This document shows positions 56,145 to 59,612 of a stretch of 64,000 nt of DNA, piece after piece. The translations under genes and the position numbers were made by a program. The stretch spans positions 61,548 through 125,547 of the forward strand of contig NZ_QTQI01000025.1 of NCBI RefSeq assembly GCF_003853705.1. Direction: 5' to 3'. The notes beneath the pieces were generated by a model that made no database searches, was not told the DNA's origin, and was given only the letters and a program-made list of their open reading frames with translations. How positions within the stretch are numbered: the first letter of the stretch is position 1; every line of letters begins with the position of its first letter. The stretch is from Burkholderia sp. Bp8992 (GTDB taxonomy: Bacteria > Pseudomonadota > Gammaproteobacteria > Burkholderiales > Burkholderiaceae).

Positions 56145-57104
56145 TCACCCGCCGCGCGCGCCGCCCGCCCGGTCGGCCACTTCGTTCCACAGATGCAGCG
56201 CCGCATACGCGCGCCACGGCCGCCAGCCTTCGGTGCGGCGCTTCTGGCTGGTGAGCCGGTCGAGCGCCGGATCGCGCGCGGCGATCGACTGCATCAGCAC
56301 GAGATCGGAGGCCGGCCACGCGTCCGGGTCGCGCCACGCGCGCATCGCGATGTACTCGACGGTCCACGGGCCGATGCCCGGCAGATCGAGCCACGCGCTG
56401 CGCAGCGTCGCGAGATCGGCATGTGCGTGATCGACCGGCACGTCGCCGGCCGCTACCGCGCGCGCCACGCCCGTCAGTGCCGCCACCCGCTTGCCGGGCA
56501 TCCCGATCTTGTCGAGATCGCACGCGGCCAGCGCGTCGGGCGTCGGGAAACGCCACGCCGGCGCGCCGTCGTCCTCGTGCACCACGCGCTCGCCTGCCCT
56601 TTCCACGAGCCGGCCGACGATCGTCGTCGCCGCCTTCACGCTCACCTGCTGGCCGACGATCGCACGCACGGCCAGTTCGAACCCCGACCATGCGCCCGGC
56701 ACGCGCAGCCCCGGCGCGGCCTCGACGAGCGGCGCGAACCACGGATCGCGCGCGAGCCCGCCGCCGATCGCGGCCGGATCGGCGCCGAGGTCGAACATCG
56801 TCGCGACGCGCGCGGCGAACGCCTCGTCGACATGGCGCGCAACGGCCCCTTCGACGGTCGCGATCAGGCAATGCTTGCGCGGATGGTTCGCGACGGTGAG
56901 CCGGCCGGCATCGCCGTGCAGGTCGACGATGCGGCGATACATGCCGTTGGCGACCTGCTCGACGCCCGGGATCGCGCGCCCGCTGAAGAAGCGCAGCACG
57001 CGCGCCCAGTCGTACGGCGCCTTGTAGCGCAGCTCCATCTGCGCGGACGGCGGCACATGGCCGCCGTTCGCGATGGACGTGATCGTTGCTGTTTCGATGC
57101 TCAA
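56145..57104 (-). CDS. alkA: DNA-3-methyladenine glycosylase II
   Basis: AlkA is a base-excision-repair glycosylase that removes alkylated purines. The 319-residue product has an N-terminal beta domain, then the helix-hairpin-helix GPD core with AWLDLPGIGPWTVEYIAMRA. The catalytic aspartate is in DAWPASDLVLMQ. It overlaps the ada stop by 4 bases (ATGA), so alkylation damage induces both through Ada. Confidence 0.93.
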   Translation of the reverse strand: MSIETATITSIANGGHVPPSAQMELRYKAPYDWARVLRFFSGRAIPGVEQVANGMYRRIVDLHGDAGRLTVANHPRKHCLIATVEGAVARHVDEAFAARVATMFDLGADPAAIGGGLARDPWFAPLVEAAPGLRVPGAWSGFELAVRAIVGQQVSVKAATTIVGRLVERAGERVVHEDDGAPAWRFPTPDALAACDLDKIGMPGKRVAALTGVARAVAAGDVPVDHAHADLATLRSAWLDLPGIGPWTVEYIAMRAWRDPDAWPASDLVLMQSIAARDPALDRLTSQKRRTEGWRPWRAYAALHLWNEVADRAGGARGG

Positions 57105-58192
57105 ACCTCACTGCCCTCCGTCACTGCTTCGGGTTCATCGTTGTGGGCATGACGCGCCTCGGACGCGAGCAGCGTCGCCTTGCGGCGCACGCCCCAGCGA
57201 TATCCGGCGAGCGCGCCGCCCTTCTGCACGACACGGTGGCATGGAATCGCGAGCGCGACCGGGTTCGACGCGCACGCGGACGCGACGGCCCGCACCGCGC
57301 GCGGCGAACCGAGCGCCTCGGCAATCTCCGAGTAGCTGCGTGTTTCGCCGTACGGAATATGCGTCAGCGCTTCCCATACGCGTTGCTGGAACGCAGTCGG
57401 CGCGATGTCGAGCGGCAGGTCGAATGCGTGCCGCGTGCCGTCCAGGTACGCGCGGATCTGCGCGACGAACGGCGCAAGCCGCGCGGGCGCTTCGACCAGT
57501 TCGGCGCGGGCAAATGCGTCCTTCAGTTCGCCGACGAGCGCCGCCGGTTCGTCGCCGAACGCGATCCGGCAGATGCCCTGATCGGTCGCGGCGACGAGCA
57601 CCGTGCCGAGCGACGTCGACGCGGTCGCATACTCGATCCGCAGGCCTGCGCCCTGGCGGCGGAACGCGGACGGCGCCATCCCGAGCTCGCGCGGTACCGA
57701 CGCATAGAGCCGCGACGGCGAATTGAAACCCGCGTCGACGGCCGCCTGCGTGACCGGCTGCCCGCTTTGCAGCGCCTGCCGCAGCGCGGCGCCGCGCTGC
57801 GCTGCCTGGTACTGCCGCGGCGACACGCCGACCACGCGCTTGAAGAGCCGCTGCAGGTGGAACGGGCTCACGTGCACGGCGTCGCTCAGTTGCTGCAGCG
57901 TGAGCCGCTCGGCATGCGCGTCGAGCACCGCGCATGCGCGGTTGACGATCTCGAGCTCGCGCGGCAGCCCTTCCGGCTGGCAGCGCTTGCACGGCCGGAA
58001 GCCGGCCGCGCGTGCGGCCGCCGCATCGGTGAAGAACGACACGTTCTCGCGACGCGGCTGTCGCGATGCGCAGGTCGGACGGCAGAACACGCCGGTCGTG
58101 CTCACGGCATAGAAGAACGCGCCATCCGCATGCGGATCGCGCTCGGTCACGGCGCCCCAGCGGGCATCGTCGGTCGGATAGGCGGTTTTCAT
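57101..58192 (-). CDS. ada: Bifunctional Ada methyltransferase/activator
   Basis: Ada repairs methylphosphotriesters and O6-methylguanine and activates the adaptive response. The 363-residue product has an N-terminal zinc domain with cysteines C37, C41, C68 and C71 (GVFCRPTC; RPCKRCQ). C37 is the methyl acceptor. An AraC-type HTH (VHVSPFHLQRLFKRVVGVSP) follows, then the C-terminal MGMT domain with acceptor motif IPCHRVV. The start (MKTAYPTDDARW) is preferred over upstream frame extensions. alkA is coupled downstream. Confidence 0.96.
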   Translation of the reverse strand: MKTAYPTDDARWGAVTERDPHADGAFFYAVSTTGVFCRPTCASRQPRRENVSFFTDAAAARAAGFRPCKRCQPEGLPRELEIVNRACAVLDAHAERLTLQQLSDAVHVSPFHLQRLFKRVVGVSPRQYQAAQRGAALRQALQSGQPVTQAAVDAGFNSPSRLYASVPRELGMAPSAFRRQGAGLRIEYATASTSLGTVLVAATDQGICRIAFGDEPAALVGELKDAFARAELVEAPARLAPFVAQIRAYLDGTRHAFDLPLDIAPTAFQQRVWEALTHIPYGETRSYSEIAEALGSPRAVRAVASACASNPVALAIPCHRVVQKGGALAGYRWGVRRKATLLASEARHAHNDEPEAVTEGSEV

Positions 58193-58431
58193 CTGAACCT
58201 CGTACGCTTTAGTGTAGATGGTGCCTACTCTAGACATCGGCACATGCCGTCGCGCCCTGAATCTTGCTCTGTGATTCGATCGACGAACCGGGGACGCATC
58301 AGTTGACAATAAATCCGACGAAACGTGTGCGGCGGCCGCTCCGGCGCGATTTTCGTCATCGTCCCGTCACTCTTTTGCTGCACTGCGGATGCGACAAATC
58401 GCCGTCCTGACGTTTTTTTGCAATCGGAATA

Positions 58432-58460
58432 TTGCGTCGCACCATCGCCGTGTGTATAGT
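58432..58460 (+). promoter_or_regulatory. Promoter of the predicted small RNA
   Basis: TTGCGT (58432-58437), an exact 17-base spacer and TATAGT (58455-58460) form a strong sigma70-type promoter. The predicted start is about 58466. Confidence 0.8.
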
Positions 58461-58465
58461 TGGAA

Positions 58466-58533
58466 CTGTCTCCTCCATGTCTCCTCCTGATATGGATTAA
58501 GCCCGCTCCGCACTGCGTGAGCGGGCTTTTTTT
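58466..58533 (+). ncRNA. Predicted sRNA with two CUCCUCC motifs
   Basis: A ~68-nt transcript is defined by the promoter above and by an intrinsic terminator (AGCCCGCTC / GAGCGGGCT stem, 10-base loop, run of seven T ending at 58533). Its 5' half holds two copies of TCTCCTCC (58469-58476 and 58480-58487) 11 bases apart. These are complementary to Shine-Dalgarno sequences. There is no coding frame. CUCCUCC-bearing stress sRNAs are known in alphaproteobacteria. That this is a related functional RNA is inference. Confidence 0.8.
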
Positions 58534-58622
58534 CGTCTGTCGATTGTGCCGCGTTCCGGCCTGCGGCGCAGGCGCGATGCGCCTACACTCGATGCTCGTC
58601 GACAGCGAAGGAGTAACCGTTC

Positions 58623-59036
58623 ATGAAGCCCATCATTCGCGGGATCGACCACATCGTGCTGCGCGTGACGGACATGGCGGCGATGACGCGCTTTTACTGC
58701 GACGCCGTCGGCTGCCATATCGAGAAGGAGCAGCCCGATCTGGGCCTCGTGCAGCTGCGCGCCGGCGATGCGCTGATCGACCTGCTGACGGTCGGCGGCC
58801 CGATCGACCGTCCCGACAGCGGCCCGCCGGGCACCGGGCGCAACCTCGATCACCTGTGCCTGCGCGTCGAGCCGTTCGATCCCGACGCATTGATCGCCCA
58901 TTTCACCGCGCACGGCGCGCGGCCGGACGCGCCGGCCGAACGCTACGGCGCCGGCGGCTACGGGCCGTCGATCTACCTGTTCGATCCCGAAGGCAACATG
59001 GTCGAAGTCAAGGGGCCGCCGGCCGCGCTCGGCTGA
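58623..59036 (+). CDS. VOC-family (glyoxalase-like) protein
   Basis: This 137-residue protein has the vicinal-oxygen-chelate fold: IIRGIDHIVLRVTDMAAMTRFY opening the first beta-alpha-beta unit, LDHLCLRVEPFDP opening the second, and IYLFDPEGNMVEVKG ending it. The His/Glu residues in those segments are the probable metal ligands. The reaction is unknown. It is downstream of the small-RNA terminator, so it needs its own promoter. Confidence 0.9.
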   Translation: MKPIIRGIDHIVLRVTDMAAMTRFYCDAVGCHIEKEQPDLGLVQLRAGDALIDLLTVGGPIDRPDSGPPGTGRNLDHLCLRVEPFDPDALIAHFTAHGARPDAPAERYGAGGYGPSIYLFDPEGNMVEVKGPPAALG

Positions 59037-59057
59037 ACGCGGCCGGCGCGCGGGCCG

Positions 59058-59612
59058 TTACGCGTCCGCGCGCGCCTTCAGCACCGTCCATTCGACCGCG
59101 ACCGGATCGTGGTCGGCGCTCGAGATCCATGCGGCGCCGTCCTGCACCGTGCACTGCAGGCGCATCGTGCGCTCCGCGAGCCGCCCGAGCGCGGTCGCGA
59201 CGCCGTCGGCAAGCGACAGCACCTGCACGTTGCGCAGCCGCTCGACCTTGCTGCGCACACCCTGCCACCAGATATCCGACGTCTTGCCGCCGTACGCGAT
59301 CACCGTGACCTGCCCGGCGCGGCCGGCCGCCTTCGAGATGCGACGTTCGTCGGGCTGGCCGGCCTCGATCCATACGTCGATCGCGCCCGTCAGGTCCTTC
59401 TGCCACAGATCGGGCTCGTCGACGTCCGACAGCCCCTTGCAGAATTCGAGCCGCTCGTGCGCGAACAGCGCGAACGCGACGATGCGCACCATCATCCGGT
59501 CGTCGGTTTCCGACGGATGGCGCGCCACCGTCAGCGCGTGATCGGCGTAGTAATGCCGATCCATGTCGGCGATTTGCAGTTCGGCTTTGTAGATCGTGGA
59601 TTTCAGCGCCAT
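59058..59612 (-). CDS. yaeQ: YaeQ family protein
   Basis: This 184-residue YaeQ protein has a PD-(D/E)xK-nuclease-like fold and unknown biochemical role. Segments are MALKSTIYKAELQIADMDRH, VARHPSETDDRMMVRIVAFA, EPDLWQKDLTGAIDVWIEAG and VTVIAYGGKTSDIWWQGV. E. coli YaeQ was linked to RfaH-independent haemolysin expression. Convergent to the VOC gene. Confidence 0.92.
   Translation of the reverse strand: MALKSTIYKAELQIADMDRHYYADHALTVARHPSETDDRMMVRIVAFALFAHERLEFCKGLSDVDEPDLWQKDLTGAIDVWIEAGQPDERRISKAAGRAGQVTVIAYGGKTSDIWWQGVRSKVERLRNVQVLSLADGVATALGRLAERTMRLQCTVQDGAAWISSADHDPVAVEWTVLKARADA

Follow-up and report, generated by a model that had tools for sequence, protein, structure and literature searches.

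Predicted PhaR control of a double-hairpin small RNA of the RF02278 family in Burkholderia and its relatives

The window, by which we mean the whole 64,000-nucleotide stretch of Burkholderia DNA that was analysed, carries a double-hairpin small RNA (sRNA) of the Rfam family RF02278, probably of the ncS05 type, whose promoter is predicted to be gated by PhaR, the repressor that is released by polyhydroxybutyrate (PHB), the polymer in which the cell stores carbon. Stored carbon would then act through this RNA as a feedback brake. From sequence comparisons we put the probability of this reading at about 80%. The observation that carries it is order-wide: across 102 genomes, exact PhaR-type sites are found upstream of the sRNA solely where phaR is found. 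The sRNA itself is already known, and the new part is its predicted control by PhaR, a step that we infer in this analysis. No link between PhaR and RF02278 was found in full-text searches of open-licence literature.

The small RNA locus and its family

The sRNA is preceded by a -35 hexamer TTGCGT (58432-58437, + strand), with a geometry like that of the mapped promoter of Bordetella S17, and a -10 hexamer TATAGT (58455-58460, +) that is kept in orthologues. A scripted coordinate check gave a 17-bp spacer between the hexamers and a start-to-start distance of 11 bases between the two copies of the anti-Shine-Dalgarno motif TCTCCTCC. The RNA (58467-58534, +; predicted start ∼58467) matches RF02278, the Betaproteobacteria toxic sRNA, with 76.5 bits in cmscan against a gathering cut-off of 50, over model positions 1-64 of 64. 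It follows the family layout, with one CU-rich motif in the 5′ single strand, another in the hairpin 1 loop, and a terminator after them: the first motif (58469-58476, +) lies at the mostly unpaired 5′ end, the second (58480-58487, +) falls mostly in the loop (58482-58488) of hairpin 1 (58474-58496, +), and both are followed by an intrinsic terminator (58499-58534, +), whose stem spans 58499-58528 before the U tract. Folding of positions 58466-58533 predicted two hairpins for the 68-nt RNA, at a minimum free energy of -33.3 kcal/mol; shuffled sequences averaged -13.9, and none of 200 reached so low a value (z -6.9). The promoter, the motif pair 11 bases apart, the hairpin and the terminator are thus present as the first-pass annotation had placed them.

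Two copies of TCTCCTCC in 64 kb are no excess (expected 1.05; at least two in 25 of 100 shuffles), and we dropped the motif count by itself as evidence. The whole structure does exceed chance, as judged by the Rfam match (E 1e-13). Simple promoter and terminator scans listed neither the sRNA promoter nor its terminator, because TTGCGT has 3 of the 6 consensus bases and the terminator stem is bulged in the fold. The claim that the RNA has no coding capacity proved reasonable, since the single same-strand open reading frame of at least 60 aa across it (58460-59308, TTG start) starts 5′ of the predicted RNA and, in a different frame, overlaps a glyoxalase/VOC-family gene (58623-59036, +; PF00903). 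An Ada-type DNA methyltransferase/AraC regulator gene (57101-58195, -; PF02805, PF12833, PF01035) lies upstream of the sRNA. This Ada/VOC neighbourhood is common to 40 of 79 loci (L001-L079, with duplicates, paralogues and other families counted), and the region has a close match on a Burkholderia anthina contig (L273), one of the 80 named loci compared, with 92% identity over 6950 bases spanning the sRNA locus.

The annotation's term 'unannotated' was wrong with respect to both Rfam and the literature, and the reading of a new sRNA is ruled out by RF02278 together with published homologues in B. cenocepacia J2315. By the published descriptions (PMC4603805, PMC5688073), these are the double-hairpin RNAs ncS03 (59 nt), ncS05 (67 nt) and ncS62 (57 nt), and ncS27, which is 92 nt and processed; all four share with the window RNA the RF02278 fold, two CU-rich motifs and a terminator. 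ncS05 was seen as a 67-nt short transcript by dRNA-seq (PMC5688073), and its gene order in J2315 is given as complement strand, <- <- ->, which when reversed is the order of the window: Ada (-), sRNA (+), glyoxalase-family gene (+). From length and gene order, the window sRNA is probably the counterpart of ncS05 and, judged against the published description of J2315, shows no visible difference from that type. In G001, the nearest relative sampled, four of five RF02278 copies give matches of 60, 68, 62 and 58 nt, and these four lengths fit the four published J2315 types. The parts of the published J2315 account consulted do not mention control by PhaR.

RF02278 occurs in 3-7 copies in each of the 61 genus genomes sampled, and in a 300-genome sample of the order, inferred to be Burkholderiales in the GTDB sense, 188 match the family at E<=0.001 and 114 score above the cut-off. 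The tandem motif pair, which had been called notable for a betaproteobacterium, is the core of this family and not peculiar to the window locus: of 102 relatives, 95 have TCTCCTCC unchanged, and a second CTCC-type motif is present in 94 (CTCCT or longer in 93) and absent in 8. The start-to-start spacing is 10 in 77 of those 94 relatives and 11, as in the window, in 4. Across 100 unique relatives, the terminator stem shows changes on both sides with pairing kept, and the consensus fold of hairpin 1 retains 3 pairs only. Family membership and the conservation of both the CUCCUCC motifs and the terminator are shown by these comparisons. The locus very probably encodes a real sRNA of ∼68 nt whose CUCCUCC motifs, by complementarity, could pair with ribosome sites; this part of the original claim gains from homologues that are expressed and from pairing shown for S17, while broad repression is plausible.

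Three other families were tried and rejected: anti-hemB RF02837 (25.6 bits, cut-off 49.5), NmsRb RF02877 (24.3 bits, cut-off 52) and MmgR RF00519 (15.5 bits, cut-off 41). The first two, the Neisseria sibling sRNAs, are alike in their layout of CU-rich loop and terminator. Close same-strand RF02278 copies that recall these siblings were seen in three genomes (G068 C1:1646160/1646538, G270 C10:271947/272162 and G300 C1:278702/278931). With positions 58466-58541 of the window as the query, the PLSDB plasmid collection gave four short sRNA matches of 39-74 bases and no copy of the whole locus, so RF02278-like copies may be carried on plasmids too. The four matches lie in CP000617.1, NZ_CP084275.1, NZ_CP013104.1 and NZ_CP015960.1, large replicons of which one is from Burkholderia vietnamiensis G4.

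A predicted PhaR operator and its distribution

When upstream regions were compared side by side, a conserved block TATTGCGTCGCACCAT was found to surround the -35 box and to fit TGCRNYGCASMA, a consensus for PhaR binding that was derived in Bradyrhizobium with the help of DNase I footprints (PMC6201568). This consensus is external to our data, with no fitting to these loci. In the window, the predicted operator TGCGTCGCACCA (58433-58444, +) matches it at 12 of 12 positions and overlaps the -35 box. The first-pass annotation named TTGCGT as a -35 hexamer only and missed it as part of a conserved PhaR-type operator. A second PhaR-like site (58376-58387, - strand; TGCTGCACTGCG on +) has 1 mismatch and lies 57 bp upstream of the first in the opposite orientation. 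The exact predicted operator stands at -36 in 34 of 35 unique orthologues of the window locus, and a second site with at most 1 mismatch occurs at the 57-bp offset in 15 of the 35, the window included, 2 of them exact. The predicted placement over the -35 box is suited to blocking RNA polymerase, and the opposite second site could permit looping or cooperative tetramer binding. The operator sequence is like that of the known PhaR/PhbF regulon, which includes phaP and phbF among other genes. In Herbaspirillum, where PhaR goes by the name PhbF, the protein protects a 24-bp region with TG[N]TGC[N]3GCAA and is a repressor of phaP1 and of phbF itself (PMC3206438). The direct PhaR/PhbF targets named in the beta-proteobacterial accounts consulted are protein genes, not the RF02278 sRNA.

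We next consider how the site is distributed relative to phaR (PF07879), which was detected in 203 of the 300 order genomes and is present in G001, the nearest relative sampled of the source strain. Within 122 bp upstream, an exact site precedes 44 of 60 RF02278 loci, about half of which come from one genus, compared with 1 of 1253 control windows taken at those loci; one-mismatch sites precede 7 of the 60 against 51 of the 1253. In 73 further loci, exact sites occur in 29 of 46 from genomes with phaR and 0 of 27 from genomes where it was scored absent, and with up to one mismatch allowed the counts become 40 of 46 (11 of them one-mismatch sites) and 1 of 27. When pooled at one RF02278 locus per genome, with 102 of the 114 above-cut-off genomes counted and 200 bp searched upstream, the exact site occurs in 52 of the 73 phaR-bearing genomes and in none of the 29 scored as lacking it (Fisher p = 2.8e-12, a value inflated by dependence since the genomes share phylogeny). 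Absence of phaR was inferred partly from a missing row in the phaR search listing; one genome scored as lacking it (G184) is 85% complete, has a one-mismatch site, and belongs to a genus in which two other genomes have phaR. The earlier 120-122 bp search range had missed sites of the f4 family, which has long leaders, and the extension to 200 bp gained sites in genomes with phaR only.

As controls, 300 column-shuffled patterns over the same 200 bp matched a mean of 0.08 and a maximum of 1 of the 73 phaR-bearing genomes, and among 296 control windows of that length a single one has the exact site. Counted by family, at least one exact site is present in 15 of 18 families with phaR and in 0 of 10 without. 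The exact site is absent within 200 bp upstream of the one RF02278 locus taken in 21 of the 73 phaR-bearing genomes, and these 21 include the genomes of families f43 (0 of 2 with a site), f48 (0 of 3) and f39 (0 of 1) and half of those of f8, among others. Named genomes were also scanned for the motif with TGTCTCCTCCA after it, which gave at least 120 stretches, with a Betaproteobacteria label on 78 of the 80 listed. Ten of these matches were checked, and all 8 betaproteobacterial ones are RF02278 and both outliers are not; PhaR is present in 5 of 5 scan genomes checked, one of them labelled Methylotenera.

An alternative is that some other regulator with a PhaR-like site, whose distribution follows phaR by chance, binds the motif upstream of RF02278. 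The co-occurrence of site and phaR is partly phylogenetic, and two f43 genomes have phaR and no site at the sRNA, which both leave room for such a protein. Against it stands the same motif before the phasin genes, the classic PhaR targets: in 20 phaR-bearing genomes, with 30 of 56 phasin matches taken and controls drawn from the same loci, the exact site lies upstream of 25 of the 30 genes and in 2 of 207 control windows of 250 bp, which indicates that the motif also marks PhaR-type targets in this order. PhaR and PhbF footprints also span the motif core in the published accounts (PMC6201568, PMC3206438). The promoter of phaR itself gives no support, with an exact site within 250 bp at just 1 of 10 loci. 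Taken together, we regard binding by another regulator as rather unlikely.

The predicted PhaR site is not equally strong at all copies of the RNA. Copies of the ncS05 type have the exact site, the ncS03-length copy of G001 has a one-mismatch site, and the ncS62-length copy has an exact site in G018 and 3 mismatches at best in G001. Copies of ncS27 length have one mismatch at 121 bases upstream (G001) or two mismatches at best (G018). An upstream motif was reported as common to three of the four homologues, without a regulator in the published description, and this motif may be the predicted PhaR site.

Promoter geometry, Bordetella S17 and the phaR-less lineages

It is also conceivable that TTGCRNYGCASMA is a mere lineage-typical extended -35 element with no repressor involved. 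We examined all but two (L161 and L181) of the 52 positive loci, breaking -10 ties towards +20, and found a TANNNT match to the -10 box in 38 of these 50, of which 27 have it 22 bases after the start of the site; in these loci the preceding base plus TGCRN sit at the -35 position with a 17-bp spacer, as an extended -35 element would. The base before the site is T in 36 of the 50 loci. Arguing against a plain promoter element, the -10 match lies at other distances (11, 13, 27 or 40-42 bases after the site start) in 7 of the 38, an opposite-strand second site is kept 57 bp upstream in those 15 of 35 orthologues, and phasin promoters bear the motif on either strand at varying distances. TTGCRNYGCASMA is also uncommon in the 7.6-Mb genome of G001, with 54 matches against 31 for the reversed pattern, an excess that may reflect further PhaR targets in Burkholderia. 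We therefore hold the promoter-element explanation to be very unlikely. Between the site and the RNA body lie 24 to 137 bases, a spread that points to a leader being made in some families.

Leaders are of interest with regard to S17 of Bordetella pertussis, which by the published account (PMC11722255) has nearly the same 5′ motif block. Unlike the window sRNA, S17 is made as a long 190-nt transcript, which RNase E cuts to ∼70 nt, and it is Bvg-responsive. Its mapped promoter, TTGCAT-17-TACTAT, has the same geometry as that of the window, is described as activator-independent, and led its authors to postulate a repressor (PMC11722255). In the f4 family, loci L042 and L048 have TTGCATCGCACAA followed by TACTAT at the 17-bp-spacer geometry, with hexamers equal to those of S17. 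Because the mapped S17 -35 and -10 boxes equal those of these operator-bearing loci, PhaR may be the repressor postulated for the S17 promoter.

A different element marks most of the lineages that lack phaR. Among the 102 loci, 21 of the 29 without phaR have ATTAGANAATNC in the 130 bp before the RF02278 body, against 1 of the 73 with phaR, and it often takes the palindrome-like form ATTAGATAATTCTAAT. It was noticed among loci L120-L146, L041 and L058, at the sRNA promoter. The two f43 genomes, G351 (L040) and G149 (L163), have phaR and an sRNA without the site; in G351, phaR has a phasin-like gene nearby that is itself preceded by an exact operator, and L040 bears ATTAGANAATNC like its phaR-less relatives.

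A possible brake fed by stored carbon

The proposed control could work as follows. At low PHB, PhaR would sit on the operator and block RNA polymerase. As carbon becomes excessive and PHB granules form, PhaR would move to the polymer, in accordance with its reported departure from operators as PHB forms (PMC6201568), and the promoter would open, allowing the ∼68-nt RNA to accumulate. The CUCCUCC motifs in its 5′ single strand and loop would then base-pair with the GGAGG ribosome sites on mRNAs for transport and catabolism, and the uptake of carbon and amino acids would fall. In this way RF02278 would form the RNA branch of the PhaR regulon and act as a brake fed by stored carbon.

Several published findings bear on the later steps. 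RF02278 RNAs were predicted to pair with ribosome sites (PMC4603805, PMC5688073); in S17, site 1 represses a target, with pairing shown by compensatory mutations (PMC11722255); overexpression of ncS27 slows growth (PMC5688073); and a review describes genes for the metabolism and transport of amino acids and sugars as affected by ncS27 (PMC10987360). In glucose medium, ncS05 rises 6.9-fold and ncS03 8.0-fold, and ncS27 rises 4.3-fold (PMC5688073). Control by PhaR fits the rise of ncS05 and ncS03, but ncS27, which has no clear site, rises too.

The picture drawn in the first-pass annotation, of an undescribed, constitutive and non-specific inhibitor of translation, could appeal to the complementarity of the motifs to GGAGG and to the toxicity reported for RF02278 members in E. 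coli (PMC4603805), a toxicity that S17 is reported not to share to a similar degree. Its novelty is refuted by the RF02278 family and the J2315 homologues, and in the published accounts homologues respond to conditions and act on particular gene sets, leaving this picture with next to no credence.

PhaR-gated expression of RF02278 would have a parallel in Sinorhizobium, where PhaR/AniA represses the sRNA mmgR (PMC8401924). MmgR (RF00519, alpha-r8) is alike as a short sRNA under a PHB-responsive repressor. It differs from RF02278, as described, in belonging to another RNA family, in being controlled also by NtrC, and in acting on phasins. Joining these lines, we think it likely, with somewhat less assurance than for the window locus, that RF02278 belongs ancestrally to the PhaR regulon across Betaproteobacteria as its RNA branch, released by PHB and braking carbon and nitrogen uptake, with ATTAGANAATNC in place of the operator in most phaR-less lineages and PhaR as the repressor of S17.

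Double-hairpin sRNAs are among those abundant in B. cenocepacia biofilms, and the regulation of biofilm-abundant sRNA accumulation was stated to be unknown (PMC5688073); according to a 2021 review, the part that riboregulation plays in PHB synthesis by Cupriavidus necator had yet to be deciphered (PMC8401924). If the predicted control is true, the carbon store itself would gate a broad brake on translation, and the PhaR-mmgR arrangement of alphaproteobacteria would extend to a second sRNA family in another class. This would matter for bioplastic production and for the way in which associates of plants and animals control nutrients.
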